Source of the DNA: Flavobacterium sp. KACC 22763
GTDB lineage: Bacteria; Bacteroidota; Bacteroidia; Flavobacteriales; Flavobacteriaceae
NCBI RefSeq assembly: GCF_028736155.1
Contig: NZ_CP117879.1
Span: 2,418,001-2,482,000 of the forward strand
Direction: 5' to 3'
DNA: 64,000 bases
The notes beneath the pieces are model-generated. The model had not been told where the DNA came from. It worked only from the letters and a program-made list of their open reading frames with translations, and did no database searches. Numbering within the stretch: position 1 is the first letter of the stretch; the number at the start of each line of letters is the position of its first letter. The position numbers and the translations under genes are program-made. This document shows, one piece after another, positions 17,121 through 51,556 of this stretch.

Positions 17121-17201
17121 GGGGAGATACTCAAGCGGCCAACGAGGGCAGACTGTAAATCTGCTGTGAAAACTTCGCAGGTTCGAATCCTGCTCTCCCC
17201 A
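17121..17201 (+). tRNA. tRNA-Tyr (anticodon GTA)
   Basis: A full cloverleaf can be drawn. The acceptor stem GGGGAGA (17121-17127) pairs with TCTCCCC (17194-17200) with discriminator A at 17201. The anticodon loop is CTGTAAA with anticodon GTA. A long variable arm typical of class II bacterial tRNA-Tyr follows, then the T arm with loop TTCGAAT. CCA is not encoded. The 3' 21 bases of the gene are part of a 28-bp repeat found again at 51529-51556. Confidence 0.95.
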
Positions 17202-17208
17202 CGGAAAG
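17181..17208 (+). repeat. Attachment-site core, left (attL), in the tRNA-Tyr 3' end
   Basis: This 28-bp stretch starts in the T loop (TTCGAATCC), covers the 3' acceptor strand, and ends 7 bases past the tRNA. It is identical, in the same orientation, to 51529-51556. The flanking bases differ at both ends (17180 G versus A; 17209 G versus T). Direct repeats of a tRNA 3' end are the classic product of site-specific integration by a tyrosine recombinase. Confidence 0.85.
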
Positions 17209-17271
17209 GCCGAAAAGGCGGAAAACTCAAAGTTTTCAATCTTTTCAAAAAGCCTTAAAAAATGTCTGAAG

Positions 17272-17303
17272 ACCTGCAAATTCAACGATTTGCAGGTTTT
17301 TTT
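17272..17303 (+). terminator. Intrinsic terminator downstream of tRNA-Tyr
   Basis: Perfect 10-bp stem ACCTGCAAAT / ATTTGCAGGT with loop TCAACG and a T-run. It lies 70 bp past the tRNA, inside the putative island, and probably replaces the terminator now found at 51555. Confidence 0.85.
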
Positions 17304-17349
17304 CGTTTAAGGCCTATTTTCAATATTTATAAAACCTCACAAAATTAAA

Positions 17350-17370
17350 GGTGCAGAATCGGTGCACTTT
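17350..17370 (+). repeat. Island end motif, copy 1 (candidate arm-type site)
   Basis: 21 bp containing GGTGCAGAATCGGTGCAC then TTT. A copy with one mismatch is at 51459-51479 near the right end, and a more diverged one is at 18697-18716. In an excised circle, copies 1 and 3 would flank the 28-bp core (49 bp on one side, 141 bp on the other), as recombinase arm sites do. Confidence 0.55.
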
Positions 17371-17502
17371 CCAGTGTGGAGTTGCTACCTTTTTTGCGAC
17401 TAAAAGCTTAGGCGGTGTATATCGGAAATAGTAAAAAAGAAGGATATAGTACTTAGAATTTCTTGTTGAAAGCTAACTTTATGAATGCTAAATTTCACAG
17501 GC

Positions 17503-17808
17503 ATGAAAACTACAAGAAGAACCTTTACTTTGGGCTTCAAGATTCTGGCCGCCACCATGAGCATCCACTGCGGAAGGGTCTGTGACGTGGCAAGAGAGCT
17601 CAATATCAGCGCAAGCACACTGCAGCACTGGAAAAAGCTCTATCAGGAAGGCGGATTTACTACAAAAAAGACCCCAGCTGAAATAACCCATAAAAACGAG
17701 CTCTTGAAGCTACGGAAACAGATCAAAGAGCTGGAAATAGAAAGGGACATCCTAAAAAAGGCTCAAAATATCTTCTCCAGGAGCGGCGGGCGAAATATGA
17801 ATTCATAA
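17503..17808 (+). CDS. IS3-family transposase OrfA (helix-turn-helix)
   Basis: A 101-residue DNA-binding half of an IS3-type transposase, starting at the ATG at 17503 (MKTTRRTFTLGFK). It contains an HTH (VCDVARELNISASTLQHWKK) that recognises the element's ends and a C-terminal leucine-zipper-like helix (ELLKLRKQIKELEIERDIL). The frame holds the slippery heptamer A_AAA_AAG at 17754-17760 in the zero frame; a -1 slip there joins OrfA to the OrfB frame (..YEFIKENSKIFPVEKM) to give the active fused transposase. An upstream in-frame ATG at 17485 is less likely. Confidence 0.9.
   Translation: MKTTRRTFTLGFKILAATMSIHCGRVCDVARELNISASTLQHWKKLYQEGGFTTKKTPAEITHKNELLKLRKQIKELEIERDILKKAQNIFSRSGGRNMNS
17754..17760 (+). 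promoter_or_regulatory. Programmed -1 frameshift site of the IS3 transposase
   Basis: The heptamer A_AAA_AAG is in the OrfA frame at codons CTA AAA AAG. The -1 frame is open from here through 17841 to the OrfB stop, as required for an OrfAB fusion. Confidence 0.75.
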
Positions 17809-17840
17809 AGGAAAACTCGAAAATATTTCCCGTTGAGAAG

Positions 17841-18665
17841 ATGTGCCGGATTTTTCAGATCCACAAAAGCAGTTTTTTCCGATGGCGAAAAAGAACACCA
17901 ACCGCAAGGTCAGAACGAAAAGCCCACATCATAACCGAGATTATAAAAATCTACCACTGGAGCCAGTGCCGATACGGAAGCCCAAGAATTGCCAAAGAAT
18001 TAGATACTATCGGGATAAAAGTCTCGAGAAAATTTGTCGGGCAGGTTATGAAGGAAAACCATCTAAGAAGCATTGCAAAGTCGAAATACAAAAAGACCAC
18101 TAGCCCATCCCGCATTAATAATGCCGTCGAAAACAGATTGGAACAGATTTTTAAAGCAGGCAGAATAAATGAAATCTGGGTTTCAGATATGACCTACATC
18201 GAAACAGCAGAAGGCTGGCTGTATCTAACTGTTGTGATAGACCTTTTTGACCGCAAAGTGATCGGCTGGTCCATCAGTGAAACAATGAGAGCGAAAAATA
18301 CCAGCATCGCTTCTTTAGCAAAAGCTCTTTTAAATCGTCCCCTTCAGCATGATCAGGAATTGCTGTTTCACTCTGATCGGGGGATACAATATACATGCAG
18401 TGAGTTTACTGCTTTATTATCAGATACCGGACAGATAACCCAGAGCATGAGCCGTAAGGGAAACTGTTATGATAACGCAATTGCAGAAAGCTTCTTCAAG
18501 ACATTAAAGGTAGAACTGGTATACCAGAATAAATATAAGACAAAAGAGAAAGCTGAAAAATCCATAGCTGATTATATAGAAAACTTTTACAACACCTGCA
18601 GAAGACATTCTGCACTAGGAAACTTAACTATTAAAGAGTTTCAGAATCAGCAGTCAATTAAATAA
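17841..18665 (+). CDS. IS3-family transposase OrfB (DDE integrase catalytic domain)
   Basis: A 274-residue rve-type integrase domain that cuts and joins DNA ends. The catalytic triad is visible as D in WVSDMTYIE, D in FHSDRGIQYTC, and E in NAIAESFFKTLK with the following Lys. The N-terminal HTH_21-like segment (HWSQCRYGSPRIAKEL) is also typical. In the native protein this part is probably made as a fusion with OrfA through a -1 frameshift at 17754. No stop or frameshift damages it, so it may still be active. It sits between the tRNA-Tyr attachment site and the pectin genes. Confidence 0.93.
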   Translation: MCRIFQIHKSSFFRWRKRTPTARSERKAHIITEIIKIYHWSQCRYGSPRIAKELDTIGIKVSRKFVGQVMKENHLRSIAKSKYKKTTSPSRINNAVENRLEQIFKAGRINEIWVSDMTYIETAEGWLYLTVVIDLFDRKVIGWSISETMRAKNTSIASLAKALLNRPLQHDQELLFHSDRGIQYTCSEFTALLSDTGQITQSMSRKGNCYDNAIAESFFKTLKVELVYQNKYKTKEKAEKSIADYIENFYNTCRRHSALGNLTIKEFQNQQSIK

Positions 18666-18696
18666 TGGTTTTTCTTATAATGCAAGCATTAATACG

Positions 18697-18716
18697 GGTG
18701 CAGAATCGATGCTTTT
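18697..18716 (+). repeat. Island end motif, copy 2 (diverged)
   Basis: It contains GGTGCAGAATCGATGC, matching the left 12 bp of copy 1 exactly and then diverging. It lies 32 bp behind the transposase stop, so copies 1 and 2 bracket the IS coding region in direct orientation. Confidence 0.45.
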
Positions 18717-18910
18717 AGATTTAACAAGAACATATATTACTGTATTAAAACAATTTGAATGCTCGAGTTCGAAACATTACTACATCAAAAATGCTATAAA
18801 ATAAAGAAATCCAAGACTTTTCAAATTGCATATATAAACTATGACCTTCCATGCTATTAATTTTGAATGACAATCTAAACCAACTACACATGCAAATATT
18901 ATAAATCAAT

Positions 18911-18971: not shown

Positions 18972-19625
18972 TCAATTAAAAATAACAGCGTGATCTTTTT
19001 CTATTGCCGAATTTGATGCATTTTTTGCAGTAGAAGTAAATGTTTTTCCCTCAGATTTTTTCACGTCTCCAAAATATTGCATAATGAAACTTACATCATT
19101 TTGAGTTGAAGCAATTTCGCCGTCTTTATAAACGGTAGCCGTACCTTTTCCCGTAAAACTCACTTTATACTTGGCTCCATTTTCGATAACTTTAAAAGTG
19201 CCACCTGTTGGACGAATGCTAACTCCGTTTGTAACCGACAAAGCTCCTTTTGCTGTATTGACATTTGTGCCCAATAAAGATTGCCCCCATTTTGTAAAAG
19301 TAAAAGCTGTAGCTTCAGAAAAACTCCCATAACTATAATCTCCTTTTGCCAGATTATTTTGAAGAGAAGAAAACAGCTCGAAGTAAACCACTGCCCCATC
19401 TTCTGTTGCAGAAATAGACTTAGATCGCAACGAGAAATCAATATTGTAAGCATTTCCGCGAATGCCATAATTCTCCAAATAGCCTTGCGATAATTCGACC
19501 GTCTGGCTGCCAATTTTTAAAAATCCTTTGTTTACACTAGTATCTTGATCGCTGTCACTATCACTTGAACAAGAAGATAATAAGGTAATAAAAACCAACA
19601 CTAATAATTTTATATTATTATTCAT
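18972..19625 (-). CDS. Surface-type lipoprotein at the end of the pectin PUL, unknown function
   Basis: A 217-residue lipoprotein. The lipobox is SSC (about Cys19) followed by a strongly acidic run (SSDSDSDQD) typical of surface-exported Bacteroidota lipoproteins. The mature part is a predicted all-beta domain rich in Gly, Ser and Thr. I do not recognise a named family. It is the last gene of the leftward pectin operon, 78 bp downstream of the giant CE8-PL1 gene, and is followed by a terminator. A role in binding pectin fragments at the surface is plausible from context only. Confidence 0.65.
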   Translation of the reverse strand: MNNNIKLLVLVFITLLSSCSSDSDSDQDTSVNKGFLKIGSQTVELSQGYLENYGIRGNAYNIDFSLRSKSISATEDGAVVYFELFSSLQNNLAKGDYSYGSFSEATAFTFTKWGQSLLGTNVNTAKGALSVTNGVSIRPTGGTFKVIENGAKYKVSFTGKGTATVYKDGEIASTQNDVSFIMQYFGDVKKSEGKTFTSTAKNASNSAIEKDHAVIFN

Positions 19626-19703
19626 ATCTATGATGATTTAATTTTTAAAACATAATTTTATCAGTTCGGGACGAACAATAAAATCTCATCCCGAATCTTA
19701 GAT

Positions 19704-22700
19704 TTATTTAACGATAATTCTAGCTGTCTGCTCTGTCTTAAGACTCTTAATGAAATAAGCTCCAGAGGGCAAATCTGACACCGAAATCTCCGTTTCGGAA
19801 CCAATGACATCAACTTGTTTAACTAAAAGCCCGTTCATACTAAAGATTGCCAATTGATCAAATTCTGCACTTGATTTCAAGGTAACTTTTCCTGTAGCAA
19901 CAGTTGGAAAAACTAAAAACTCGCCCAGCTTTTTCCAGCGCCCGTAAAGCGTGAAATTATCTTTCTGAGTAGTTCCAAAACCTGTTATTTCTTTTGAGTA
20001 AAAAGCGTCAGCATACCATCCTAAAAATCGATATCCCGAGCATTGCGCCTCTTCCAGCGTAAAAGCAATTCCGGTTTGTGCGCTTGTTTTATTTGGATTA
20101 ATAGCTCCCGCAGGCAGATTCAAATATGAAATGCTGTAAAAAGTCGGCGCTTCATCCTGTTTGTTGTTTCCACCAGCTCCCCAAAAAGCATAGAAAGTCT
20201 GATTTCCTGTCGCCGTAACTGCAATTTCTTTTATTGAATTCGGTACCGTTGCCGAAGTTGACCATCCAAAAAATGTATAGTCTTTTAAGGTTGGAATCGG
20301 CAATGATAATGCTGAACCTTCCGTATACTCCATTGGGGTTAAACCAGAAATTGCTTTACCATCAATCGAATTTAGGTATGAAACACCAGATTTTACAATA
20401 GGTTTGGGATCAGGTTTGTTATTTCCTCCTTCTCCCCAGAAAGCGTAAAACAGTTGATCTCCTGTTGCTGCTGCAGGAATTGTTTTCAATAATCCTGGCG
20501 TGGTTGCAGTAGCCGACCATCCAAAAAAGGTATAGCCTTCTAATTTTGGAGTTTTTAAGTTCGTTACGACTCCTTCCATATATTCCGCCGGAGAAAGTGC
20601 TATAGCTTTTCCATCAATAGAATTTACATAACTGATTTTAGAAAATTTTGCATCAGCTTTTAACCATCTCGGATCTCCTAATGCTCCTCCTTCTAAAGAG
20701 GCTTTCGCTAAAGGTGAATTTTTAGAAAAACTAAAATTTCCTTGCCCTGGATTTGGGTACGCGAGTGCTGTTAATCCTAACCCAATTAAAGTCTTAACAT
20801 TGGTTTCACTAACCATCACTGCTCCTTTAACTGTTTGAGAAGAAACTCCAACAAAAAGATTATTGTCTAAAGCTACTTTTCCTGCTCCGGCAGAATTATT
20901 AGAATTGAAGAGATAAATTGGTTTTGAATTTTCTCTTTCGTCCTGCATAATATTATTTTTGAAAGAGTAAGCCGATGCAGCACTGTACTGATTGTCTACA
21001 AACACAAATCCGTTTCCAGCTGCATTTCCTGAATTATAAATCGTATTGCTTTCAAAAGTGATGTTTAACGTTTGAACTGCGGCATTTTCGTTTTGAAGGA
21101 TCAAGAAACTGTTTCCTTTTTCGTAATTGAAAATAGTCGAATTTTTAACCGAAATAGAATTTACAATATGCGAATCAAGCTGCATAAAACTTCCTCCAGC
21201 TGCTGCACTTCCATCAATAATACAGTTTTCTAAAGCAATTTTAGAAATAGAATTCTCAGCAGTTCCATCAGTTACTAATAAACTTTGTTTGATTCCTTTA
21301 ATTGAGGCATTTTTTATTTCGAAACTCGATACGCTTGCTCCTTTTTTCAACTGAAGCAGATTTGCTCCAGCATTTGTCAAATCAAAATCAACACCATCAA
21401 AACTAAAGCTTCCCGAAACAATTTCTGGATTTTCTGAAGCAAAAGATCCCGCAAAAATAGGTTTCGCGCCTGCATCTGGAACAAAAGCATATTTATGGTT
21501 TTTAACCGCTAGATCTGTTGTCGTCGTATATGTACCGCTCGCCATAATAAATTTAGAGCCGTTTTCTGCCGCATTGTACTTCTCAACAAAATTCTGCGGA
21601 TTCACATACACATCTAAACTGCCATTTTGATTTGATATAATATTATCTACAATACTGTTGATGTAAACTTCAACGTTAGTATATTTTCCGTCAATTGTTT
21701 TTAAATTGCCATCAGCAGAACTTGCAGGATTTAATCCTTTTTCTGTTTCCCATTTATCAGGCATACCGTCACCATCTGTATCTGTTGGCGCTTCTCCAGA
21801 AGGCAATACTGGCCATCCGCCTGTTGCTGAAGGCGTGTCGATATAGCCGTTAGTGCTTCCGTTACCTCCATTCATAATACTAGCTTTGCCAGAACGCGTG
21901 TCGTCTACCGCTCTCTTATCGACAGCATCTCTGTATAGATTCGCTCCTGCATTTTCCAAAACCAATTCATATGCTTTTGTTGCGCTATGAGTTGTAATTT
22001 CGCCGAAAGCGTGGGGTGCACTGATTTTCAATGCAGCTTTATCTGCATCGCTTACAGGAAGCTGGCTGCCATGAAATTGGCTGTAAACCCCGTATGTCCA
22101 GTTATCCTGCGTTGCTCTTTCCGATCCTACCACAAAATTTCCGTCAACAAAATATTTCCCCCAAATTCCGTATAATGGCGAAGTTGCGTCTAAACTTCTG
22201 CCCGTTGACAGAATACGTTCCTTAGTAGAATTTGATGTTCCTGGCCCAGGTTTCCAGTAATTGTTTACCAGATTTACATTCATCGCATCTCCGCCATAAC
22301 AGCTATTTCCTCCCCAATTGTAAATTACGTTGTTGCGAATATCTACTAAATCAGTTTTTGCAAAAATATCATTTGCATATTCTCCCAACCTCGGATTGCG
22401 GCTATCATGATGCGCTAACAGATTATGATGGAATGAAGCATTCTTTCCGCCCCAAACACCACCATATCCGTGGGCTCCTTTTGCGTGAACAGAATTCCTA
22501 AGGCTTTCAGAAATAATACACCATTGCAGCGTAAAGTTCTCATTTTGATAAAAAGAAACGCATTCGTCTGTTGACCAGCTCATAGAGCAGTGGTCTACAA
22601 TGATATTTTTTTGAAAACGTCCTCCTAAAGCATCATTTTCCACATCATGGGTATCTCCCATTCTAAAGCGCAAATAGCGAAGAATAATGTTATTTCCTCT

Positions 22701-25700
22701 TACTTTGACATTATAATCTTTTAAAGTGATACCGCCTCCTGGAGCTGTTTGTCCTGCAATTGTAATATTATCGGTAATATTCAATTCGCTTTTTAACTCA
22801 ATATTTCCAGAAACTTTAAACACAACAATTCTAGGACCAGCCTGACCAATCGCATCTCGAAGCGAACCCGCTCCCGAATCATTCAAATTGGTAACATAAA
22901 TTACTTTTCCGCCACGGCCGCCAGTTACATATTTTCCATAACCTTCAGCACCAGGAAACGCAGGAACAACATCATTGTCCCCACCTGCTGCTTCTTTTTT
23001 AACTTCGATTTTTCCTTCTCCGTTAAAAAACTCAGGATTTGTCGTTTTATCGTAAATTCCTTCTTTAAAATCTACTCCATTAATAATAAGTTTTTGAACA
23101 TTTAAAACAGTATTCAACGACGCTTTCCCATTTTCTGTGATATTTAGATTTAAAGTGGAACCAGCTGCACGTTCATGGCTAAAAATAACATAATTATCCT
23201 GACCGATTTTAATAGTCCCAGAGCCAAAAGCATTTGCAGAAGCGCCTTCAATTACCGTTGGATAATTTAATGTTGGAAATTTTGTGCTTTTCTGTGTAAG
23301 ATCCCAATTACCGATAAATTCACTGTTATCACCTTTAAGAAGCAGAGTTCCTGTATTGGCATTCACTCCCTGACCAATATTTAAAGGCGAAATGATTCCG
23401 TCTCCTGAAACAGGCCCGCTTAAAGTCATTATGGTTTGATTGGCAATACCAGAAATCATTTCGAATTTTACATTTCCAGAAATAACCATTGGCGCTTCTA
23501 AAGTCATTCCCGCACCGCTTGTATTGTAATATACTCGCGTTCCTTCTTTAAAAGTCAGGACGCCGGTAGCTTTGTGAGCACCTCTCAAGCGAAGTGTCCC
23601 TGCGCCAGATAAAGTCATATCGGCAGGAAAAACTGTAGCTGTTGTTTCAATTTCCTTGGTACAGGAAACGGTTTTGCCTACAATTGGCATAACAGCTGGA
23701 TTATAGTTTCCTGCATTATCCCAGCTTTTGTTCACAGCAGCTGTAAACTCATAATCAAAATTAGAAGGCGGCGTAACTTCATTTGGTTTATTATTTCCTC
23801 CAACTCCCCAGAAAGCATATAAAGTCTGGTTTCCTGTTGCTGTGGCAGCAATTTCATTTAAAGTATTTGCTGTATTGCCAGAAGATGACCATCCATAAAA
23901 AGTATATCCTGCTAAAGTTGGAGTTGGCAATTTTACTACTGTACCCTCAGTATATTCTGTTGGCGTTAAACCGATCAGAGCTACTCCGTCTATTGAATTT
24001 AAATACGTAATAGAAGATTTAGATGCTCCTCCATTAATAGCCATACTGATACTATTCAAATCGCTTAATCCGCCGTATTCATTTGCTGCTTGCACGGTAT
24101 AAGTATAAGTTCCCGCAGTTGTTGAAGCATCTGTAAAAGTAGGTTCGATTGTAATGCCTAAAATTTTACCTTCTTTACTGATCACATAACACATTGCATA
24201 CGGATTTTCATCCCATTTTAAAGTGTTAGCAGCAGATACAACAAGATTTGAAGGTTTTGCGATTTGCTCCACCACCCTACGCGGATCCCATTTGTCTGTT
24301 CCGCTTAGTACATTTTCAATCGTAAATTCATCAGCTTGCGCTTTAGTCAAAACAGGATTATAATTTCCTGTCTGTGCCACGCCATTTACAGTAAATATAT
24401 TGGTTCTATTGTCGGTATTCACAGCAACTCCATTTGCGTTAACGCTATTATATTCGGCAAAAAGTGCTGGCACTGTTCCCATACTTGCCCAACCAGCCGT
24501 ATTGGGTTCAGTCATCATTTTTGTATTCAGATAAACTGCTCGTGGTGCATTTTGCCAAGGACGTCCCAAATAATAGCTTGTAGCTGCAGAAATCGTGTTG
24601 TTATTGAAAATATACCCGTATTGCGTAGCTGTATCATGATTTGGAGCTACAATATAACCGGAAGCAACCGAAACCAATTTACAATCTTCAAACCAATGCG
24701 TTCCTCCACCACAGATAAAATCAACATCTCCTTCGATTGTAGATTTATAGTAAAAACTTCTTTTTCCTCCCGTTACCTGCGTATCCTGTTTGCTTCTAAG
24801 TCGAACTCCATTATAAACATTTCGATCTCCTGCGGGATTCAAAGCAGGTCTTTGTCCAGAAGTTGTGATTCCATCCTTGTGTTCGATGGTTACATTTTCC
24901 ATATACAAATCATTGGCTTCAATAGAAAGAACAGCGTTTTTAATTCCCCAACCTGGGTTTCCTTGCAGAATTACTTTGTCTTTAGATTGTGCAATTAGCG
25001 AAACGTTATTCTTTCCTGATGGTAGCTTTAAAACTACATCCTGCGGATTTGTGCCGTCTCCACCCAAATTATAAGTTCCGTTTGTAATTAATACAAAAAA
25101 ACGTGACGCCGAAATACTGGGCGCGGCATTAAAAGCTTCTGCAATTGTTTTTACATATTTTCCTGAAGCAATCTGATCTGCTGTAGCATCTGCATCTACA
25201 ATTAAATCAAATTTACGTTTTGTTGGAATTGGCTTTTCCATTGTTTTAAATGACAAAGTAAGTGCTGAACCGTCATTTCCGGAAAGATCTTTTACAAATC
25301 CTGCTGGGAGCGTAAAAGTATATTGTTTGTTATATTCTAATCCGAAATAGCTGAATTTAACTGTTTTGTTTACAAATTCGGCGTTTAGGTTTTTGCCATT
25401 TAAAACAGCATTTCCCGTTCCTAACTGAACCTGTTCGTTATAATTTAAAATAATGCTTCCATTGGCTGCCACAGAACTTGCTGCCTCTGACGGAAATGAA
25501 GATTCTAAAATTGGCGCAACTTTATCTGTAATCAAAACCTCATCGGCTTTTATCATTAAATTGGACAGAATTGTTGCTGTAACATCAATTGCCGAACCGT
25601 GTTTTGGTCCGTTTACATTTGGAAACCATCTTAAATAGATTTTTTCTTTTCCTTCGGCTTCAGTAGGAAGAACTCCGCCAATATTGGTAATTGTTCCTGT

Positions 25701-26987: not shown

Positions 26988-27152
26988 TTTGGTTTAAATA
27001 TGGTTTTAGTTAGTAATAATTTCAAAAGGTTTTTTTCCTATTTTTCAAATCCTATTGATAGTTTATAAATTTTAATTATCAGTTAAAAAAAATTGGACGC
27101 GTATGAAACAGTTCCGGTTTTGCCAATGCGTTTTTGGTTCAATAATTCTGCT

Positions 27153-28145: not shown

Positions 28146-28196
28146 TCCTTATTTATTAAATTGATTGTCAATTCCAAAAGATGAATTCTAAATACC

Positions 28197-29186: not shown

Positions 29187-29198
29187 ATTGTCTTTTCT

Positions 29199-30878: not shown

Positions 30879-30900
30879 AATTCATTATAATTTTGAAAGA

Positions 30901-37475: not shown

Positions 37476-37494
37476 GAGATTTAATATTATTCAA

Positions 37495-40716: not shown

Positions 40717-40876
40717 AACTAGAATATTTTTTATTGGATTATAAGCCTGTCTTTGAATTCATATAAAAAGAAATATTAAAAATTAAAACAACAACCTTTT
40801 ACGGCTATCTTATTATTTTTTTAATCCAAATAATGGCTAATCGTATTTCGTATTGGTTTGTTTGAAAAGAAGTTTA

Positions 40877-42190: not shown

Positions 42191-45100
42191 TTAACGAAAT
42201 TGTCTTCTATATTCAGCAGGCGTATGATCGTATTTGGATCTGAAGCATTTTCCGAAGTATTTCAGATCATTAAACCCTACTTCAAAGCAGATTTCTTTTA
42301 TTAATAAATCATCCTGTTTTAAAAGTCGCGCTGCTTCGCTTAATCGCATATCACGAATAAAAACAACGGGAGAAGCTCCGGTAGTGCTTTTGAGTTTGTT
42401 GAAAAAACTAGCGCGCGACATGCCCATTAGTTTTCCTAGTTCGTCAACCGAAAAATCGGAATTAGACATATTTTCTTTTACAAATCCGATAACCTGAAAC
42501 ATAAATTTCTGGTCTTTGTTTGAGATTTGCAGCGGTTCTTCTTTGAAAATCTCAATTGTGTTTCCGCTGGAAAACAATTGCTGCAAACGGGCTCGTTGTT
42601 CCAAAACATTTTTCACTCTCGCTTTTAGCAAACTGACATTAAAAGGTTTTGTAACGTAATCATCTGCTCCGTATTCTAATCCTTCCAATTTGCTTCCTAT
42701 CGATGATTTCGCGCTAAGTAAAATAACTGGAATGTGGCTGATCGACAAATTATCCCTAATTGCTTTCAGCATTTCGATTCCATCCTTCTCAGGCATCATA
42801 ATATCGCTAATGACAAAATCTGGCAAAATTTCTTCAGATTTATTATACCCTTCCTCTCCATTTTCGGCTGTAAAAATCTTATAATCGCTTTCCAAAATAG
42901 AAACAATAAACGCACGCAATTCAGGATCGTCCTCTACCACAAGTCCAATAGGCTGCTCTCTTCTCATCTCTTCTGGTGTTGCTATTTCTTGCTCAAGTTC
43001 AGATTCAAAATCCATATCCATTTCATTAGAAAAATGCTCTTCTGCTTCATCTAACAAAATATCTACATCATTTTTAAAATGCTGATAGCCTTTTAAAAAC
43101 GCAACCTGAAAACTGCTTCCTTTTCCTTGAGTGCTGTCTACCAAAACTTCCGCTCCATGTTTGTCTGCAATATCTTTTATTATAGATAATCCAAGACCTG
43201 TACTTGGGTTCGACAAGTTTTCATTATAATTTGAAAAACGGACAAATAATCTTTTTTGAAGCGTCGGACTAATTCCTGGTCCGTTATCGCTTACAGTCAA
43301 AAACACATGTTTTTCTGATTCTTCCACTTTTACTTCAATCGAATCTCCTTTACTGCAATATTTAAAGGCATTCGAAAGCAAGTTGATTAAAATTTTATCC
43401 AAACTATCTGGATCTGCCCAAATCTTTGGGTTTGATGAAGCGACATCAATACTAAGATTTATATTGCTCTGATTACTCATTTCTTCAAAATCTTCACACA
43501 TTTGAGCAACAAATTCTCTTAGATTTATTTCATGAATAGCAAGTTTTTTATCTTGAACTCGCCTCAAATCTAAAATCTGATTGACCAAATTCAATAATTT
43601 ATTGCTGCTTTTTTCTATAATTCGAAGCTGGCCTTTTGTAGGGTCTTTTAAATCTTCATCAGCAAGCATTACCTCCAACGGCGCTATAATCATAGTAAGC
43701 GGCGTACGAATTTCATGTGAAATATCAGTGAAGAATTTCAGTTTCAGCTCACTCATTTGTTTTTCCAACTTCACATCATTACGCAGTTTTAAAATAGTGA
43801 TAATGGCTCTTCTTATCAAGAAAAACAAGCCTCCAGCTAGCACCAAATAGCAGAAATAAGCAAAATTAGTCCCCCAGATCGACGGACGAATTGTAATTTT
43901 AATTTGCCTTTCATTATTCATCCATAGATTATGTCCGTTGGTTGAAGAAATTAGAAGCGTATAGCTTCCACGGCCTAAATTGGTATAATTAATAGATTGT
44001 CCGCCTTTAATGTAGTTCCATTGCTTGTCAATCCCTTCCAATTTGTAGCGGTACACGATATTTTCACTTTTAAGATAATCCAAGGCTGAAATCTGCACTT
44101 TAAAGAAATTCTGATTGTGCTCCAAGGTGACTTCTTGTAACAAATCAGGATTTTTGGGAGTTTCTGGATTTATTTCATGCAATTCTTTATTGTTAACCAA
44201 AAATCCAGAAATTGCTAAATATGGTTTAAAATGAAAAGGTTTGATGTTTTCGGGTTTGAAATAAATGACGCCATTAGAATATCCTACAGCAATTTCGCCA
44301 TTTGGCAGTTCGCATTTTGTTGCCTCAGAAAAAATCTCTGTTCCAATAATTGATTTTAATTCTGGAAAAGTCTCCGCGCTATTATTCTTTGGATCAAAAC
44401 GCACAATCTGATTGTCACTCATCAGCCAAATTTTTCCTGCCTTATCTTCTGCAATGGAAACAACTCCCTCGACTGGGAAAGAAACCATTTCGTTCCAGAT
44501 TGATTTTACGTTCAGCTGACCCTTTTTATCCAAATCGGCTAAAATCAACCCCATGCCATTGGTTGCCAACGCCATCTGATTATCATGCGTTATTAAAATA
44601 TCCAGAATATCATTTCCCGAAACCTGAGAATACTCATTAAACTTTATTTTGCTTGTCGCTTTAGTTTCTTCCGAAAAAGAAAATAATTTATACGACGAAA
44701 TAAAAAATATTTTGTGGTCTTTATTTTCTGCAATCGAACGGACTTTATCTGCTGTTTTTATTGGATAATTTTTTAATTCATTTTTAAAATTGACAAATTG
44801 AAATCCGTTGTTTGATTCGCGGATAATGTTTACACCGCCGCCCCAAGTTGCAATATAAATCTGTCCGTTTGTGGCTTGATAAATTTTAAAAATATCATCA
44901 GAATTAATTCCGTAAAGGTTATTTTCGTCATTTTTATAATGGGTAACTTTATACCGGAAAGGCTGCTCTGTTGGCAATAAACAAAACAAACCGTTTCCTC
45001 TTGTTCCTATCCAAATTCTCCCCCTATTGTCCTGAAGCATACTGTAAATATCTGCTCCCCAGCCAGGTCCGGCCGCTGATAAAGTTCCATCAGAAGCTAA

Positions 45101-46525
45101 AAATCCGATTTTCTTCTTCTGGATGTCAAACAAAGCAATTTTCTCTTTACGGCTTGCTACCCAAAGATTTCCTTTATTGTCTTTCATCAAACTTCTCACA
45201 TTATGCTTGTGATGATCGTTTGATGAATCAAGATTTAAAGTAGAGAAATTACTATTGCTGAATGTTACCAAATCTAATCCTTGTTTAAAAGAACAGAACC
45301 AAAGATTTCCTAATCTGTCAAACATTGCAGTATGCATCAAATCTGAAACGGATTCTTTGGATTCGCTAATGCATCGAATTATAGAAGACAACTTGTTGTT
45401 TTTTTCATCCCAATAAGAAAATGGCGCATTGCCCGATTGAATCCAAACTGTTCCATTTGGAGACGTAAGCAGAAAACTTTTTCTTTCCCCTCCAGCAGTT
45501 GAAGAATCACTGTAATCAACAGACATTTTTTTTATCTTTTTGGTCCACAGATCAAACTGAAACACGCCTTCACCCCTAGCTTCAAACCAAAATTGTCTAG
45601 AACGTGTGGATCCCAAAAAGGTGATTTTTTTATTGGGAAACCCTATTAAGGTCTTGCTACTATACGCATCTAGTTTTCCCGTTTTGAGATCGCAAAAATA
45701 AAAAACCTGCCCAGCTGTCATGATAAAAATTTTAGTATTGGCAACAAGTTCGGTATAAATGATATCTTCTTTAATATTGAGCTGTAAGTCAAAAAAGGTA
45801 GTTGCTTTTTTGTTGTAACGTGCCAATTCTCCTTTGTTTCCTCCAAAAAATATATCTTCTTTGGTTTCTAAAAATGTATTATACACGCAAGGCTTTCCAT
45901 TAAAAAAGAAATATTGTGGCTCTCCTCCAGATTTATCCAATCTGCAAGTACCTGCTTCGGTAAAAAACCAAGTCGTTCCCTGTTTGTCTTCAAAAATATC
46001 ACTGATTTTCCCACAGCGTTTTGCAGGGTCAAAAGCTATTTTTCTAATTTTTCTATTGGCTTCAAACGCGATTACATAATTTTTATCTTCTGGAAAAAGC
46101 CAAACTCTTCCAGAAGGCATCACTTTAAAATCGACAAACGCAATATTGCCAGCCTTTAACGGACCTTCTTCTATTGGATAATGAAAACTTAATTGTCTGG
46201 TATCAAAATAATAAATATCATTTTTCTCGGACTGAATCCAGATTCGATCGCTGTTATCAAATCTGAATTTGAAAACACGATTGGAAATTAAATTTAAAGA
46301 TCCGTTTTGTTTTACCCTGAATTTTTGAAAATTGCTTCCGTCATAACGAATCAATCCGTTAAAGGTAGAAAGCCAGATGAATCCCTTTTTATCCTGTTGA
46401 ATATCAAGAATACGTGATTGTCTTAACTTTAAATCGTTTGCAAAATGAGTCAACGTACCGGAAGGCTGCCCTGAACACAAAATACTTATCCAATAAAAAA
46501 AGAATAAAAGTATATTTCTTTTCAT
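42191..46525 (-). CDS. Hybrid two-component sensor/AraC regulator (HTCS) of the pectin PUL
   Basis: A 1444-residue one-piece two-component system: signal peptide (1-20); periplasmic seven-bladed reg_prop-type propellers (about 25-780); a Y_Y_Y beta-domain (about 800-865); one TM helix (about 885-905); histidine kinase with H-box SHEIRTPLTMI (about His937), N-box INLLSNAFKY, and G-boxes DNGPGIS and STGLGLSI; receiver domain with VVEDDPE, phospho-acceptor Asp in SDIMMPEKDG (about 1240) and TKPF; and an AraC helix-turn-helix C-terminus (about 1340-1444, ICFEVGFNDLKYFGKCF). It senses an oligosaccharide in the periplasm and activates its own PUL. It sits upstream of the pectin operon and divergent from GH3-SSS, so it can serve both. 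Confidence 0.96.
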   Translation of the reverse strand: MKRNILLFFFYWISILCSGQPSGTLTHFANDLKLRQSRILDIQQDKKGFIWLSTFNGLIRYDGSNFQKFRVKQNGSLNLISNRVFKFRFDNSDRIWIQSEKNDIYYFDTRQLSFHYPIEEGPLKAGNIAFVDFKVMPSGRVWLFPEDKNYVIAFEANRKIRKIAFDPAKRCGKISDIFEDKQGTTWFFTEAGTCRLDKSGGEPQYFFFNGKPCVYNTFLETKEDIFFGGNKGELARYNKKATTFFDLQLNIKEDIIYTELVANTKIFIMTAGQVFYFCDLKTGKLDAYSSKTLIGFPNKKITFLGSTRSRQFWFEARGEGVFQFDLWTKKIKKMSVDYSDSSTAGGERKSFLLTSPNGTVWIQSGNAPFSYWDEKNNKLSSIIRCISESKESVSDLMHTAMFDRLGNLWFCSFKQGLDLVTFSNSNFSTLNLDSSNDHHKHNVRSLMKDNKGNLWVASRKEKIALFDIQKKKIGFLASDGTLSAAGPGWGADIYSMLQDNRGRIWIGTRGNGLFCLLPTEQPFRYKVTHYKNDENNLYGINSDDIFKIYQATNGQIYIATWGGGVNIIRESNNGFQFVNFKNELKNYPIKTADKVRSIAENKDHKIFFISSYKLFSFSEETKATSKIKFNEYSQVSGNDILDILITHDNQMALATNGMGLILADLDKKGQLNVKSIWNEMVSFPVEGVVSIAEDKAGKIWLMSDNQIVRFDPKNNSAETFPELKSIIGTEIFSEATKCELPNGEIAVGYSNGVIYFKPENIKPFHFKPYLAISGFLVNNKELHEINPETPKNPDLLQEVTLEHNQNFFKVQISALDYLKSENIVYRYKLEGIDKQWNYIKGGQSINYTNLGRGSYTLLISSTNGHNLWMNNERQIKITIRPSIWGTNFAYFCYLVLAGGLFFLIRRAIITILKLRNDVKLEKQMSELKLKFFTDISHEIRTPLTMIIAPLEVMLADEDLKDPTKGQLRIIEKSSNKLLNLVNQILDLRRVQDKKLAIHEINLREFVAQMCEDFEEMSNQSNINLSIDVASSNPKIWADPDSLDKILINLLSNAFKYCSKGDSIEVKVEESEKHVFLTVSDNGPGISPTLQKRLFVRFSNYNENLSNPSTGLGLSIIKDIADKHGAEVLVDSTQGKGSSFQVAFLKGYQHFKNDVDILLDEAEEHFSNEMDMDFESELEQEIATPEEMRREQPIGLVVEDDPELRAFIVSILESDYKIFTAENGEEGYNKSEEILPDFVISDIMMPEKDGIEMLKAIRDNLSISHIPVILLSAKSSIGSKLEGLEYGADDYVTKPFNVSLLKARVKNVLEQRARLQQLFSSGNTIEIFKEEPLQISNKDQKFMFQVIGFVKENMSNSDFSVDELGKLMGMSRASFFNKLKSTTGASPVVFIRDMRLSEAARLLKQDDLLIKEICFEVGFNDLKYFGKCFRSKYDHTPAEYRRQFR

Positions 46526-46848
46526 TTCAAACTTTATAAAATTAAGAGAATTGCAAAAATATCAAAATTCCTTTCCTGTCCTAAAAGAAGTCGTTATTTC
46601 AGCAAAATAGCACCCTAAAAATAGTAATTTGTCTCCCTTTCGCACTTCATTAATAATCATAAAACATTAGCAATAAGCTTTATATCATACTTTAAATAGC
46701 ATTTTATCCTATCTTTAAAAGTATAAAAATCTAATTTTGTGAGTCAGCAATTTAATAGTCTATCCTCTTTAAATCTCTGCAAAATCATATTTCTGTTTTA
46801 TTTAAAGCAGTAATCGAAAAATAATAAATCTAACACTTTCCAAAACCT
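46526..46848. promoter_or_regulatory. Divergent promoter region between HTCS and the GH3-symporter operon
   Basis: 323 bp AT-rich. TAATTTTG (plus strand, 46732-46739) is a TAnnTTTG match and could drive GH3, leaving a leader of about 100 bases. I see no matching -33 element and no gene here. Confidence 0.5.
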
Positions 46849-49461
46849 ATGAAAAGAAAATCCATAGTTATCGCATTACACTTTTTTGCTTTAACCGCCT
46901 TTTCGCAAGAAAATTTTCCTTACAAAAATCCAAATCTGCCAACAGAACAGCGAGTTAATGACTTGGTATCAAGAATGTCATTGGACGAAAAAATAAATCA
47001 ACTAATGGATTCTGCTCCTGCTATCGACCGTTTGGGAGTTCCTGAATACAATTGGTGGAACGAATCATTGCATGGCGTTGCACGTGCGGGATTTGCCACT
47101 GTTTTTCCGCAATCTATTTCAATTGCTTCTTCTTGGGATCGCCAGTTAATATTAGATGTTGCCACTGCCATTTCTGATGAAGCTCGTGCGAAACATCATG
47201 AATATTTAAGAAGAGGCCAGCACGGAATGTACCAAGGATTGACGTTCTGGTCGCCAAACGTAAATATCTTTCGTGACCCTCGATGGGGGCGCGGACATGA
47301 AACATACGGAGAAGATCCGTTCTTGACGAGCCAATTGGGTCTTAATTACGTTAACGGACTTCAAGGAACTAATGACAAGTATTTGAAAGTGGTTGCTACC
47401 GCCAAGCATTATGCCGTGCATTCTGGGCCAGAGCCTTCCCGTCATTTTTTTGATGCCAATACAAGCGATGTGGATTTGTATGAAACTTATCTTCCTGCGT
47501 TTAGAACCTTGGTAAAAGACGGACACGTTTACTCTGTTATGGGCGCTTACAACCGTTTTAGAGGGGAGTCGGCTAGTGCGAGTCCGTTTCTTTTTAATAT
47601 TCTTCGAAATGCATGGGGATTCAACGGCTACATCGTATCGGATTGCGGCGCTGTAACCGATATTTGGAAGTACCATAAAATTACGAATGATGCTGCAGGC
47701 GCTTCTGCATTAGCGGTAAAAAACGGTTTGGATTTGGAATGCGGAAGCAGTTTCCAATCTTTAAAAGAAGCAGTTGACCGCAAATTAATTGCTGAAGCTG
47801 ACATTGATATTGCTGTAAAACGTTTATTTACAGCGAGATTTAAATTAGGTATGTTTGATCCGGACGAGATTGTTCCTTATGCCCAAATTCCGTTTTCAAC
47901 CAACAATAATACGGCTAATGATTTTCTTGCTAGAACAGCTTCGCAAAAAAGTATTGTTCTTTTAAAAAACCAAAGCAATACGCTGCCGCTCTCTAAAAAT
48001 ATCAAAACTGTCGCGGTAATTGGGCCAAATGCAGATGATATCCAATCTTTATGGGGGAATTACAGCGGAGTTCCGAGCAATCCGATTACTGTTTTAAAAG
48101 GGATTCAAAACAAATTAGAACCGAATTCAAATGTTTTATATGCAAAAGGAACTGACCTGGCTAAAGGAGTTCCAGAAATGAAAATTATACCATCAATATA
48201 TTTTCAAAATGAAAACGGCACGCAAGGTTTAATTGGCGAATATTTTGACAATAAAGAATGGAACGGAAAACCTCTTTTTACTCGTATTGATGATAATATT
48301 GATTTTGAATGGGACATCAACACGCCAGATCCTCGTTTGAAAATGGGGAATTACAGCGTAAAATGGACTGGTTATCTTACGGTTCCTAAATCGGGAACGT
48401 ATAATATTTCAGAATGGTCAAAACCTTTTATGACTGTTGAAATTAATGGCGGAAAGCCTAGTGGAGGGAAAAACAACCATCATCCGCGTTTTCGTCCTCA
48501 AAAAATTGATTTAGAAGCAGGTAAAAAATATAAAGTTGAAGTTAAATACCAAAACTTCTATGGAGACGCGATTGCACAATTATTTTGGTCAGAACCTCAG
48601 GAAAACCTAATTCAAGAAGCGGTGAAAACTGCCAATCAAGCCGATGCTGTAATTTTAGTTTTAGGACTGAATGAACGTTTGGAAGGTGAAGAAATGAAAG
48701 TGGAAGCAGATGGTTTCAACGGCGGAGACCGAACAAGTCTGGATCTTCCAGCCAATCAAGAAGAATTGATGAAAGCCGTTAAAGCGACTGGAAAACCCGT
48801 AATATTGGTTTTAATTAACGGAAGCGCGCTTTCTATCAATTGGGCAAATGATAATCTACCCGCTATTTTAACAGCTGGATATCCTGGCCAGCAAGGCGGA
48901 AATGCGATTGCTGATGTTTTATTTGGAGATTACAATCCGGCGGGCAGGCTTCCAGTTACGTACTATAAATCGGTAGATCAGCTTCCTAAATTTGAAAATT
49001 ATGATATGGAAGGCAGAACGTATCGCTATTTCCATAAAACGCCTCTTTACCCTTTTGGATTTGGTTTGAGTTATACGACTTTTAAATATGCTAATTTACA
49101 GCTTCCAAAAGATTTCAATTCTGACGCAGATTTTAAAATTTCTGTTGACATTACCAATACTGGAGATCGTGACGGAGATGAAGTGGCTGAATTATATCTG
49201 AAAGACGAGAAAGCCTCTACTCCACGTCCGATCTGCCAGTTAGAAGGTTTTGAGCGAATCCATCTTAAAAAAGGAGAAACAAAGACTGTTACTTTTACTA
49301 TTACACCAAGACAGCTTTCTATGATTAACAAGAAAAAAGAGCGCGTTGTAGAACCCGGCTGGTTCACCTTTTTTGTTGGCGGAAAACAGCCAGATGGTTC
49401 CAGTGACATTCAAAGCGGAAGAATCAACTTTACTGGCAAAACAATTACCCTTGAGAAATAA
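46849..49461 (+). CDS. GH3 beta-glycosidase with inserted PA14 domain
   Basis: An 870-residue secreted enzyme: signal peptide (1-20), GH3 N-terminal TIM barrel (about 35-350) with the nucleophile Asp265 in IVSDCGAV, an alpha/beta sandwich domain split by a PA14 carbohydrate-binding module (about 460-585, GLIGEYFDNKEW), and a C-terminal fibronectin-III-like domain. GH3 members with this layout are beta-glucosidases or beta-xylosidases. In this pectin context a xylose residue of xylogalacturonan, or glucose, is a possible substrate. It is the first gene of a rightward two-gene operon with the SSS symporter, and diverges from the HTCS gene. Confidence 0.94.
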   Translation: MKRKSIVIALHFFALTAFSQENFPYKNPNLPTEQRVNDLVSRMSLDEKINQLMDSAPAIDRLGVPEYNWWNESLHGVARAGFATVFPQSISIASSWDRQLILDVATAISDEARAKHHEYLRRGQHGMYQGLTFWSPNVNIFRDPRWGRGHETYGEDPFLTSQLGLNYVNGLQGTNDKYLKVVATAKHYAVHSGPEPSRHFFDANTSDVDLYETYLPAFRTLVKDGHVYSVMGAYNRFRGESASASPFLFNILRNAWGFNGYIVSDCGAVTDIWKYHKITNDAAGASALAVKNGLDLECGSSFQSLKEAVDRKLIAEADIDIAVKRLFTARFKLGMFDPDEIVPYAQIPFSTNNNTANDFLARTASQKSIVLLKNQSNTLPLSKNIKTVAVIGPNADDIQSLWGNYSGVPSNPITVLKGIQNKLEPNSNVLYAKGTDLAKGVPEMKIIPSIYFQNENGTQGLIGEYFDNKEWNGKPLFTRIDDNIDFEWDINTPDPRLKMGNYSVKWTGYLTVPKSGTYNISEWSKPFMTVEINGGKPSGGKNNHHPRFRPQKIDLEAGKKYKVEVKYQNFYGDAIAQLFWSEPQENLIQEAVKTANQADAVILVLGLNERLEGEEMKVEADGFNGGDRTSLDLPANQEELMKAVKATGKPVILVLINGSALSINWANDNLPAILTAGYPGQQGGNAIADVLFGDYNPAGRLPVTYYKSVDQLPKFENYDMEGRTYRYFHKTPLYPFGFGLSYTTFKYANLQLPKDFNSDADFKISVDITNTGDRDGDEVAELYLKDEKASTPRPICQLEGFERIHLKKGETKTVTFTITPRQLSMINKKKERVVEPGWFTFFVGGKQPDGSSDIQSGRINFTGKTITLEK

Positions 49462-49516
49462 ACTTTTGCATACTATTTAATTGACTATTAACCACCTTTA
49501 TTAATCAAATTTTACA

Positions 49517-51205
49517 ATGAACCAAAACCTCGCTTTCGCAGACTATGCGGTTTTTATTATTTATTTTATCGTAGTCTCGGTCTACGGTTACACCGTTTAC
49601 CGCAAACGTAAACAGGACGAACAAGATGCTAAAGCTTACTTTTTGGCTGAAGGAAATTTAACTTGGTGGGCAATTGGAGCTTCTCTTATTGCTTCTAATA
49701 TCTCGGCCGAGCAGTTCATCGGAATGAGCGGTGAAGGTTTCTTTTTAGGAATCGCTGTTGCTGCTTACGAATGGCTTGCTGCTGTTGCTCTTATAATTGT
49801 GGCTGTATGGTTTATTCCTGTATATCTTAAAAACAAGATTTATACCATGCCTCAATTCTTAAAAACACGTTACAATGAATCTACTGCACTTATCATGGCA
49901 GTATTCTGGCTGTTTTTATATGTTTTTGTAAACCTTACTTCTATTTTGTATTTAGGAGCAGTTGCGATTAACAAACTTGCTGGTGGGGAATATCTTCACG
50001 TAATCATGCTTGGATTGGCCATTTTTGCTTTGTTTATTTCTCTTGGAGGAATGAAGGTTGTAGCTTATACAGACGTTATTCAGGTGGCTGTATTAATTAT
50101 CGGAGGTTTGGTAACTTCTTATATTGCCTTAACAACAGTTGCAGAAGCTTTTGGTGTTGGCCAAAATGCAATTGCAGGTTTCAAAGTTTTAATGCAGCAG
50201 GCTCCAGAACATTTCAAAATGATTATTCCGAAACCAACTGCGACATCTTCTCAGCTTGAAATCGATAAATATTTAACTTTCCCAGGATTGTTATCTTATG
50301 CTGCTGGTATCTGGATCATCAACTTAAACTACTGGGGATGTAACCAATACATTACGCAAAGAGCTCTTGGTGCTGACTTGCAGACAGCGCGTACAGGAAT
50401 TTTATTTGCTGGTATGCTAAAATTATTAATGCCGCTTATCGTAATGCTTCCTGGTATTGCTGCTTATGTTTTATATACAAACGGTCACTTGCCTCAATTA
50501 GAAGGAGGAGTAAAAGATGAGGCATATTCTGCCATATTAACATTCCTTCCAACTGGATTAAAAGGACTTTCTGTTGCGGCTCTTACCGCTGCAATTGTAG
50601 CTTCTTTAGCTGGAAAAGTAAACAGTATTTCTACAATCTACACATTAGACGTTCATAAAAAGTACATCCAGAAAGATGCTGGCGAAAAACAGCAGGTAAA
50701 CATTGGACGTCTTGCCGTTTTTGTTGCCATGCTTTTGGCTGTTTTATTTACATGGAATGACGTTTTAGGAATCGGAGGAGTTGGAGGATTTACATACATC
50801 CAAAAATATACTGGATTCATCAGCCCTGGAGTTTTTGCCATGTTCTTCTTAGGTATGTTCTGGAAAAGAACTACTGGAACAGCGGCAATCGTTGGAGTAA
50901 TCTTAGGATTCTTATTATCTGTTTTATTCAACGAATACGCTCCAGCTTTATTTGGAAACGACACACTTTTATACACAGCTTACAATAACGGAAAAGGAGC
51001 TTTCGAAATTCCGTTCCACATCTGTATGGGATTATCATTCTTGTTTACAATGATTGCCATGATTCTTATAAGTTTTGCTGGTCCAAAAGTAAACCCAAAA
51101 GCATTCGAAATTGATTCTGAAATGTTTAAAATTAAACCGCAGACAACAGTCTTAATCGTTATTACGTTATTGATTATTGCTGCGCTTTATGTTAAGTTCT
51201 GGTAA
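49517..51205 (+). CDS. SSS-family sodium/solute symporter (sugar or uronate uptake)
   Basis: A 562-residue inner-membrane protein with about 14 hydrophobic helices and the SGLT-type signature blocks (WWAIGASLIASNISAEQFIG and the FTYIQKYTGFISPGVFAMFF region). It couples Na+ influx to uptake of a sugar or sugar acid. It follows GH3 by 55 bp on the same strand, and its likely cargo is the monosaccharide or unsaturated uronate released by the periplasmic enzymes. It is the last gene before the right end of the island (51529). Substrate is inference. Confidence 0.93.
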   Translation: MNQNLAFADYAVFIIYFIVVSVYGYTVYRKRKQDEQDAKAYFLAEGNLTWWAIGASLIASNISAEQFIGMSGEGFFLGIAVAAYEWLAAVALIIVAVWFIPVYLKNKIYTMPQFLKTRYNESTALIMAVFWLFLYVFVNLTSILYLGAVAINKLAGGEYLHVIMLGLAIFALFISLGGMKVVAYTDVIQVAVLIIGGLVTSYIALTTVAEAFGVGQNAIAGFKVLMQQAPEHFKMIIPKPTATSSQLEIDKYLTFPGLLSYAAGIWIINLNYWGCNQYITQRALGADLQTARTGILFAGMLKLLMPLIVMLPGIAAYVLYTNGHLPQLEGGVKDEAYSAILTFLPTGLKGLSVAALTAAIVASLAGKVNSISTIYTLDVHKKYIQKDAGEKQQVNIGRLAVFVAMLLAVLFTWNDVLGIGGVGGFTYIQKYTGFISPGVFAMFFLGMFWKRTTGTAAIVGVILGFLLSVLFNEYAPALFGNDTLLYTAYNNGKGAFEIPFHICMGLSFLFTMIAMILISFAGPKVNPKAFEIDSEMFKIKPQTTVLIVITLLIIAALYVKFW

Positions 51206-51458
51206 TAAATTATCAGTTCAATTTTCTCTATCTTTACAAATTAATCATCATAAATTTTGAGATGAATTGTACTGGCGTAGTACTTCATAAGTTTTATACT
51301 GATGCTAATATTTTTGAAACCCTGTTTAAATAAGTTTAAAATCCAGTATTTTTAATATATTTGTACAACAAAAAAAAGAATAATACCACTGTTTATTAAT
51401 TCGTTAGCACTTTAATTTTTGTGATTGACTTAATTTTGAAATATAAGAATTGAATTTG

Positions 51459-51479
51459 GGTGCATAATCGGTGCACTTT
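51459..51479 (+). repeat. Island end motif, copy 3 (candidate arm-type site)
   Basis: GGTGCATAATCGGTGCAC followed by TTT differs from copy 1 (17350) at one base only. It lies 49 bp before the right 28-bp core. The remaining part of the 450-bp gap 51206-51655 holds only AT-rich sequence, the core and its terminator. Confidence 0.6.
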
Positions 51480-51528
51480 GGTAAAGACAATTTATAAAGC
51501 CCAGTATAGACAGGACTTCAGCTATAAA

Positions 51529-51556
51529 GTTCGAATCCTGCTCTCCCCACGGAAAG
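51529..51556 (+). repeat. Attachment-site core, right (attR): duplicated tRNA-Tyr 3' end
   Basis: Exact 28-bp copy of 17181-17208, beginning in the T loop and ending 7 bases past the tRNA. Upstream sequence does not form a D arm, anticodon or variable arm, so it is only a fragment and not a gene. A perfect terminator hairpin begins within it (51555). Confidence 0.85.

Follow-up and report, generated by a model that had tools for sequence, protein, structure and literature searches.

The window analysed here is a stretch of 64,000 nucleotides from the genome of Flavobacterium sp. KACC 22763 (NZ_CP117879.1, positions 2,418,001 to 2,482,000), in which a 34-kb segment (17209-51556) lies between an intact tRNA-Tyr gene and a second copy of the 3' end of that gene. 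An earlier note on this DNA had read the segment as a genomic island with a complete polysaccharide utilization locus (PUL) for pectin as its cargo. It placed an IS3-family element and a PUL with regulator, SusC, SusD, enzymes and symporter between the two copies, and the protein domain scans agree. The repeat itself, GTTCGAATCCTGCTCTCCCCACGGAAAG, is a 3' fragment of tRNA-Tyr, and the copies at 17181-17208 and 51529-51556 are identical over 28 bp, exactly where the note had placed them. Its 27-base core occurs exactly twice, 34.3 kb apart, in the genome of 5,561,005 bp (a single contig), and the reversed control gave no match in the same genome; with two copies in 5.56 Mb, the concern that the repeat might recur at many unrelated sites did not materialise. 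Just inside both island ends lies a second repeat pair, GGTGCAnAATCGGTGCACTTT, in the same orientation (17350-17370 and 51459-51479), which the earlier note had overlooked. Right behind the second tRNA fragment stands a hairpin (51556-51583), which reads GTCCTAATC-TTT-GATTAGGAC-T7. The features at the two boundaries are as follows.

17121..17202, + strand: tRNA-Tyr (GTA), the integration target, intact (ARAGORN)
17181..17208, + strand: left copy of the 28-bp repeat, attL core (repeat comparison, genome pattern count)
17181..17374, + strand: conserved left end of the island family, with its own hairpin (17273-17303) and an arm-type repeat (nhmmer left-end model, positions 1-194)
17350..17370, + strand: left arm-type repeat GGTGCAGAATCGGTGCACTTT (repeat comparison)
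17377..18782, + strand: IS3-family insertion sequence (IS) with orfA 17485-17808 and orfB 17841-18665, exact ends uncertain (domain scans, left-end comparison)
18697..18782, + strand: right part of the IS, resembling an island right end, with a near-copy of the motif (2 mismatches) and GTTCGAA (sequence comparison)
51371..51552, + strand: conserved right end of the island family (nhmmer right-end model, positions 3-187)
51459..51479, + strand: right arm-type repeat GGTGCATAATCGGTGCACTTT (repeat comparison)
51529..51556, + strand: right copy of the 28-bp repeat, attR core (repeat comparison, genome pattern count)
51556..51583, + strand: tRNA-Tyr terminator, displaced by the island (sequence read and relatives' sites)

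Conserved ends at tRNA-Tyr

Both ends of the segment belong to a conserved set (about 195 bp on the left, about 180 bp on the right) bearing GGTGCAnAATCGGTGCAC. The left-end nhmmer model spans the tRNA core through the motif, and the right-end model begins about 90 bp ahead of the motif and extends over the tRNA core; the window's own ends are among the training rows of both models, which recover ends in many fetched loci. The 17-base motif was found at 51 places in 22 of 150 genomes of the genus (own genome included), and its reversed pattern at none. Among the matches listed, those outside Flavobacterium were set aside as mostly at the chance level estimated for 16 fixed bases in 257 Gb. The motif alone was also rejected as an island marker, as the right end of the IS3-family element bears it too.

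The searches gave 51 distinct matches resembling the left end, and the 28 with E < 1e-50 were used as left ends of the GGTGCA type (GGTGCA being the hexamer treated below). L104 (E 8.5e-31; L, G and C numbers are our handles for loci, genomes and contigs) has the GGTGCA motif but resembles a right end and was left out. Complete tRNA-Tyr genes directly precede 21 of the 28 left ends, and three more (L042, L096, L141) follow the right core of another unit, an arrangement that reads as a tandem junction. In a plasmid collection, the left-end query matched in the tRNA part only, among the best 10 of 62 records, and the right-end query gave no match, so that no circular form was found in that collection.

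That the second tRNA fragment and the motif are chance or an assembly artefact around an ordinary chromosomal PUL is extremely improbable. Nothing beyond the small difference in GC content given below favours such an origin, and it is already contradicted: the genome is a single contig, the right-end model matches other islands, and the terminator is displaced likewise in relatives. Chance was discarded as the source of the repeat on its two genomic copies and on the matches of the end models at other sites.

Empty sites and other occupants

We read six sites, syntenic or at tRNA-Tyr, that hold no GGTGCA-type island (G004, G005, G008, G030, G065, G106). In G008 and G106, the tRNA is followed immediately by a GTCCTAAT/ATTAGGAC hairpin as at 51556 here, which bears out the earlier expectation that the terminator behind the second copy is that of the tRNA, pushed away by the island. 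Different sequences follow the tRNA at the other four sites. A second, uninterrupted tRNA-Tyr of G126 bears the same hairpin type, which also stands 3' of the right-end core in G126, G111 and G125. At the gene level, the right flank of the window is not shared by G008 and G106, and the downstream region of G008 is not pristine, with a decayed GTGGCA-type motif about 140 bp past the tRNA. In G065, the tRNA precedes a different type of hairpin and an MFS gene, and an 18-kb island separates the tRNA of G015 from a similar MFS gene. The hydroxyproline genes of the window's right flank adjoin the site only in G006 and G132 among the genomes examined, both of which hold inserts. Thus the empty site predicted earlier was found as a tRNA running directly into the hairpin, while the predicted adjacency of tRNA, hairpin and hydroxyproline genes was not found free of an insert. 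The segment nevertheless has what defines a tRNA-targeted genomic island, namely that the 3' end of the tRNA is repeated directly at the other boundary and that relatives have an empty site.

The content of the tRNA-Tyr site varies among close relatives: other cargo, an integrative and conjugative element (ICE) plus a GH26/GH43/GH92 PUL (GH, glycoside hydrolase family), or a scar. In the sister genome G006, the insert is 13.7 kb long and lacks SusC/SusD; its left end shows a degenerate integrase start and its right core is decayed. A repeat protein of this insert (L018:6221-6840) includes a run of unread residues (X). In G132, a left end is fused to a right end at a core-to-core distance of 239 bp, and 45 kb of other genes lie beyond. 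G111, whose left flank is 92-93% identical to that of the window in the three longest pieces, holds an integrase-bearing ICE at the tRNA on contig C35 and, on contig C5, a 42.6-kb island between two right-end cores. Ten proteins of the latter were scanned and comprised one SusC-like, one SusD, two GH26, four GH43 and one GH92 protein. The islands of G015, G114 and G125 have no SusC/SusD inside. Some gene names in the relatives' islands were read from N-termini, and the enzyme names for G111 and for G089/G159 were checked. The case that would have told against the earlier note, the same PUL at this place without a second tRNA fragment, did not occur: the PUL is absent from the tRNA-Tyr site in all six of the PUL-bearing relatives in which that site was read (G132, G015, G114, G106, G065, G089).

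Integrase, conjugation genes and arm-type repeats

In relatives, the same left end abuts a family integrase, a tyrosine recombinase with the domains Arm-DNA-bind_5, Phage_int_SAM_5 and Phage_integrase. Where the leader is intact, this integrase begins 144 bp past the start of the motif, in all 7 loci measured. One family ICE encodes TraG, TraM (Transposon_TraM), DUF4138 and CtnDOT_TraJ proteins, and relatives of all these conjugation proteins occur in four genomes (G126, G111 on C35, G159 and G089). G075 has part of the conjugation set, and G080 has the integrase with matches to none of the five Tra queries. The ICEs of G126, G111 (C35) and G159 lie directly against the tRNA, and that of G089 against another unit. 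Between conjugation-type genes, the ICE arrays of G111 (C35), G126, G159 and G089 (L230, L221, L276 and L263) hold a SusC/SusD pair, and these pairs are interrelated. The PUL-like segment of the G089 array, by reading of agar type, encodes a GH16 enzyme, a sulfatase, a 2-keto-3-deoxygalactonokinase, an aldehyde dehydrogenase and an enolase-type protein, and that of the G159 array encodes GH97, GH31, GH65 and SusD proteins.

In the window, tblastn (E up to 1) found no relative of the family integrase, in agreement with the earlier description of an island without integrase, and the own genome has no member of the family at E <= 1e-20. The island proteins scanned gave no integrase, relaxase or tra family match, and the transposase of the IS is the only mobility gene found. 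The segment is thus not an ICE, which has its own integrase and a conjugation module, nor an integrative and mobilizable element, which has its own integrase and usually a relaxase or oriT, as there is no family integrase and no relaxase family match among the island proteins scanned. It keeps attL and attR, and integration and transfer genes are absent among the proteins scanned. This corresponds to a cis-mobilizable element (CIME), which the accessible part of PMC5704250 describes as an element without integration and transfer genes that keeps attL and attR, together with an accretion model and tandem arrays.

Upstream of the 27 integrases examined, a hexamer was read three times, twice in direct and once in inverted orientation. 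The 15 integrases with at least 91% identity to the query go with GGTGCA; nine integrases with 73-89% identity have GTGGCA, GTGGCGCA or, once, a mixed GTGGCA/GGTGCA form. Except in the mixed form, the copies change in concert, give or take a base. Three integrases of 37-38% identity have GGTGCA again; one of these (L041) lies beside a tRNA-Ser, and no tRNA was found for the other two in the stretches scanned. Three of the five loci in the 73-75% identical group are at tRNA-Ser (L347, L349, L350), with no tRNA found for the remaining two. The integrase of L342 has diverged more in its arm domain than in its catalytic domain (79% versus 95%), and its target is still tRNA-Tyr. Since the hexamer class follows the integrase clade, the hexamer is probably an arm site, and the GGTGCA repeats inside both ends of the island would probably be arm sites of the integrase. 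A further observation concerns the target: four integrase-bearing left ends (L046, L146, L202, L339) lie at a common sequence other than tRNA-Tyr, ...gatcctcgtaggtTTCAATACTGCTCTCCCC, which forms a second target for integrases of the GGTGCA class.

The third, inverted arm copy of the integrase-bearing relatives is missing from the window's left end. Along with a genome that has no family integrase and island proteins without an integrase, relaxase or tra match among those scanned, this would suit a trapped and fully immobile island, that is, a PUL domesticated at a tRNA gene. We regard such an outcome as possible but rather doubtful, given that the cores are identical over 28 bp, that both arm repeats are kept and that related species have integrases of the matching class.

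An insertion sequence at the integrase position

The IS3-family element starts 10 bp after the left 17-base repeat, where relatives carry the integrase leader, and its right end carries the near-copy of the motif, with GTTCGAAACATTACTA behind it. Elsewhere in the own genome, the 17-base pattern occurs once more, at 2016270 (G000:C1; L022:11271), in a copy that has no tRNA and is the right end of a related IS-like element; the near-copy of the motif carried by the IS right end explains this lone occurrence. IS3-family left ends (TGGAGTTG...) stand 9-10 bp after the arm motif or a variant in the window (17377-18782) and in L096, L167, L170, L226, L265, L266 and L279. Measured from the start of an exact or variant motif, IS-group left ends begin at 26-27 bp in 12 of 43 candidate ends and at 37 bp in one more. 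As most loci were fetched for holding the motif, 12/43 should not be taken as a rate, but such fetching does not account for the constant offset.

None of the seven testable IS-bearing left ends has kept the integrase, compared with 17 of 20 others that have at least its start (Fisher p = 1.4e-4; the genomes are related and hence the counts are not independent). If the four left ends at the other target are set aside, the comparison is 0/7 against 13/16. Among the 17 left ends with an integrase start, 16 were recognised by an N-terminal string within 3 kb and L202 by tblastn, the gene of G006 (L018) not being intact. Eight left ends have an IS left end, seven found by script and L052 by eye plus a transposase relative, and three have neither (L025, L045, L050). 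L039, whose sequence stops about 160 bp past the motif, was excluded from the test, and L167 reaches only 1.6 kb beyond the motif. No target-site duplication of the IS was visible in the flanks read. Overall, the position and the association suggest the IS as the cause of integrase loss here.

The PUL and its relatives

The cargo has what a Bacteroidota PUL requires, a SusC/SusD pair, carbohydrate-active enzymes and a regulator. Its pectinesterase, GH28, GH88/GH105-type and GH43 domains suggest pectin as the substrate. The genes, assigned by domain scan, are the following.

18972..51205, no single strand: putative pectin PUL; relatives' homology runs from 18900/18971 to 51238 (domain scans, collinear matches)
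19704..26987, - strand: 2427-aa multidomain protein with CBM6, pectinesterase, DUF5123/DUF4957 and a type IX secretion (T9SS) tail
27153..28145, - strand: esterase (BD-FAE)
28197..29186, - strand: pectinesterase
29199..30878, - strand: GH28
30901..32121, - strand: PF07470 (GH88/GH105 type)
32127..33770, - strand: GH43
33912..35561, - strand: DUF5123 protein, by its presumed role a probable surface glycan-binding protein
35574..37475, - strand: SusD
37495..40716, - strand: SusC
40877..41632, - strand: 251-aa protein with no Pfam match, conserved in the PUL (also from relatives)
42191..46525, - strand: hybrid two-component system regulator
46849..49461, + strand: GH3
49517..51205, + strand: SSS sodium:solute symporter

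The 6.8-kb SusC-SusD-DUF5123 region is matched over all or nearly all of its length in 11 other genomes (199 searched, own included), and two more have it in pieces. The surroundings of the PUL were read in six of them (G132, G086, G015, G114, G106, G065; fetched flanks from less than 1 kb to 20 kb a side), and these flanks have no shared neighbours, except G106 with G065, no motif within 3 mismatches and no tRNA-Tyr. The same PUL lies outside such islands in six relatives and is therefore not tied to this island type, so the idea of a PUL specific to this island was rejected. In G132, the PUL (L242:2983-5762) lies within a few kb of tRNA-Ile and tRNA-Ala genes, which probably belong to an rRNA operon (rRNA by reading).

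Differences at fourfold sites were compared between the PUL and neighbouring core genes. To G132, they amount to 0.40 in the PUL and 0.26 in the core; to G015, G106, G065 and G114, to 0.51-0.55 and 0.40-0.46. To G086, the value is 0.31 in both, and the PUL is a mosaic (0.16-0.17 in 19704-26987 and the GH3 gene, 0.26 in the symporter, 0.34-0.49 in the middle). From these differences, the PUL has probably exchanged pieces horizontally, with a ranking of relatives close to that of the core.

A further possibility is that the att-bounded scaffold is old and resident and that the PUL entered it later by homologous or IS-mediated recombination, never having been carried between cells by the island. 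We consider this plausible, if somewhat short of an even chance. G006 and G132 share the hydroxyproline genes as right neighbour and have remnants of the same left end around other content, the PUL occurs outside any such island in the six relatives, and the right end of the IS, with its piece resembling an island right end, adjoins the PUL. By contrast, the window's left end is only 87.8% identical to that of its sister G006 (core gene 92.1%) and 92.5% identical to those of the more distant L186, L169 and L112 (core about 81-82%; L186 80.8%), a discordance with the core gene that points to the scaffold having arrived separately and later. The right core is also intact here and decayed in G006.

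Two features of the window lie outside the island. To the right of the hydroxyproline genes (53924-63985) there is another probable PUL, with GH115, a SASA-type esterase and SusC/SusD-like proteins, and at 9690-9843 there is an intergenic dispersed repeat of about 150 bp with many copies, about 74-88% identical, among the matches listed in the relatives searched.

Discussion

We interpret 17209-51556 as a genomic island that is a cis-mobilizable, CIME-like remnant of an ICE with the pectin PUL as cargo, built by a site-specific tyrosine recombinase from an ICE family of Flavobacterium whose usual integration site is the 3' end of tRNA-Tyr, and we assign this reading a probability of about 0.87. 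An integrase of the ICE family would have joined attP to the tRNA-Tyr 3' end. Crossover within the tRNA 3' core would have restored a complete tRNA gene at the left boundary and produced the extra fragment at the right one, with the terminator shifted by 34 kb. The element would later have lost its integrase and tra genes, the IS probably being involved, with the att ends and their two arm copies each staying behind. To excise or move, the island would then need a helper, either a GGTGCA-class integrase acting in trans or a related ICE that integrates next to it and acts in cis; tandem junctions between units are seen in relatives. As the genome has no family integrase, movement most likely needs an incoming GGTGCA-class ICE. 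We infer that the island may be mobilisable in this way and that the PUL may have travelled with it. The earlier idea of the PUL as a movable module accordingly stands in part: the PUL does lie in an att-bounded island, but an island without integrase and conjugation genes needs a helper and is not self-contained, and the PUL is also found outside such islands.

Several observations weigh against this interpretation. Four of the 28 GGTGCA-type left ends (L046, L146, L202, L339) are at a different common sequence and not at tRNA-Tyr. The GC content of the island, about 0.37, is only slightly higher than the averages of 0.33 on the left and 0.36 on the right. Five other proteins with a Phage_integrase domain (tyrosine recombinases) are encoded in the own genome, none inside the window, and the island could be fixed in place. 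Except for G132, the PUL ranks the relatives roughly like the core, so that an older, vertically inherited PUL moved within the lineage is possible. The association between IS and integrase rests on related genomes and on loci fetched for the motif; at three left ends (G015, G100, G132) the integrase is missing with no IS end present, and the integrase of G006 has decayed without an IS. The latter cases imply that the IS is not the sole route to integrase loss.

Known systems resemble parts of this picture. The CIMEs of ICESt1-related islands in Streptococcus thermophilus, as far as the accessible sources describe them, have likewise lost integration and transfer genes, kept attL/attR and formed tandem arrays at one target; the present case differs in its host (Bacteroidota), its target (tRNA-Tyr), its PUL cargo and the IS3 element next to the arm sites, and its mobilisation is our inference. 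CTnDOT-type ICEs of Bacteroidetes are the autonomous relatives, a relative's element having CtnDOT_TraJ, Transposon_TraM, TraG and DUF4138 proteins and an arm-binding tyrosine recombinase, whereas the window island has none of these genes and the target here is tRNA-Tyr. According to the accessible parts of the reports, 47 SusC/SusD loci lie on mobile genetic elements of the gut (PMC6907783) and some Bacteroides PULs are associated with ICEs (PMC8845570). With these elements of gut Bacteroidetes the island shares, on those partial accounts, a PUL as cargo; it differs in that an IS transposase is the only mobility gene found, in its genus and in having the whole PUL between att sites. The ssrA-specific vcrABC islands of Dehalococcoides similarly combine catabolic cargo with an island family at one RNA gene, and the available text of PMC3146451 gives a syntenic integration module in 16 of 31 islands, compared with none in the window island. 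A literature search confined to open titles and abstract openings, with subscription papers and preprints beyond its reach, returned no description of this tRNA-Tyr island family.

A broader scheme, which we think unlikely on present evidence, is that one group of IS3-family elements targets integrase arm sites in tRNA-Tyr ICEs, inserts 9-10 bp downstream of the arm repeat, severs the integrase from its own end and so yields integrase-less cargo islands. Any ICE whose integrase recognises the same hexamer might then shuttle these in trans, PULs included, and tRNA-Tyr might serve as a shared docking port for PULs in Flavobacterium.

The locus provides a bounded case of a complete PUL as the cargo of an att-flanked island outside gut Bacteroides, and it delimits the element family able to supply the missing integrase. 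The arm hexamer may act as a sequence code that predicts which integrase should move which island. Two short DNA ends and one recombinase would thereby suffice for a direct test of PUL mobility in Flavobacterium.

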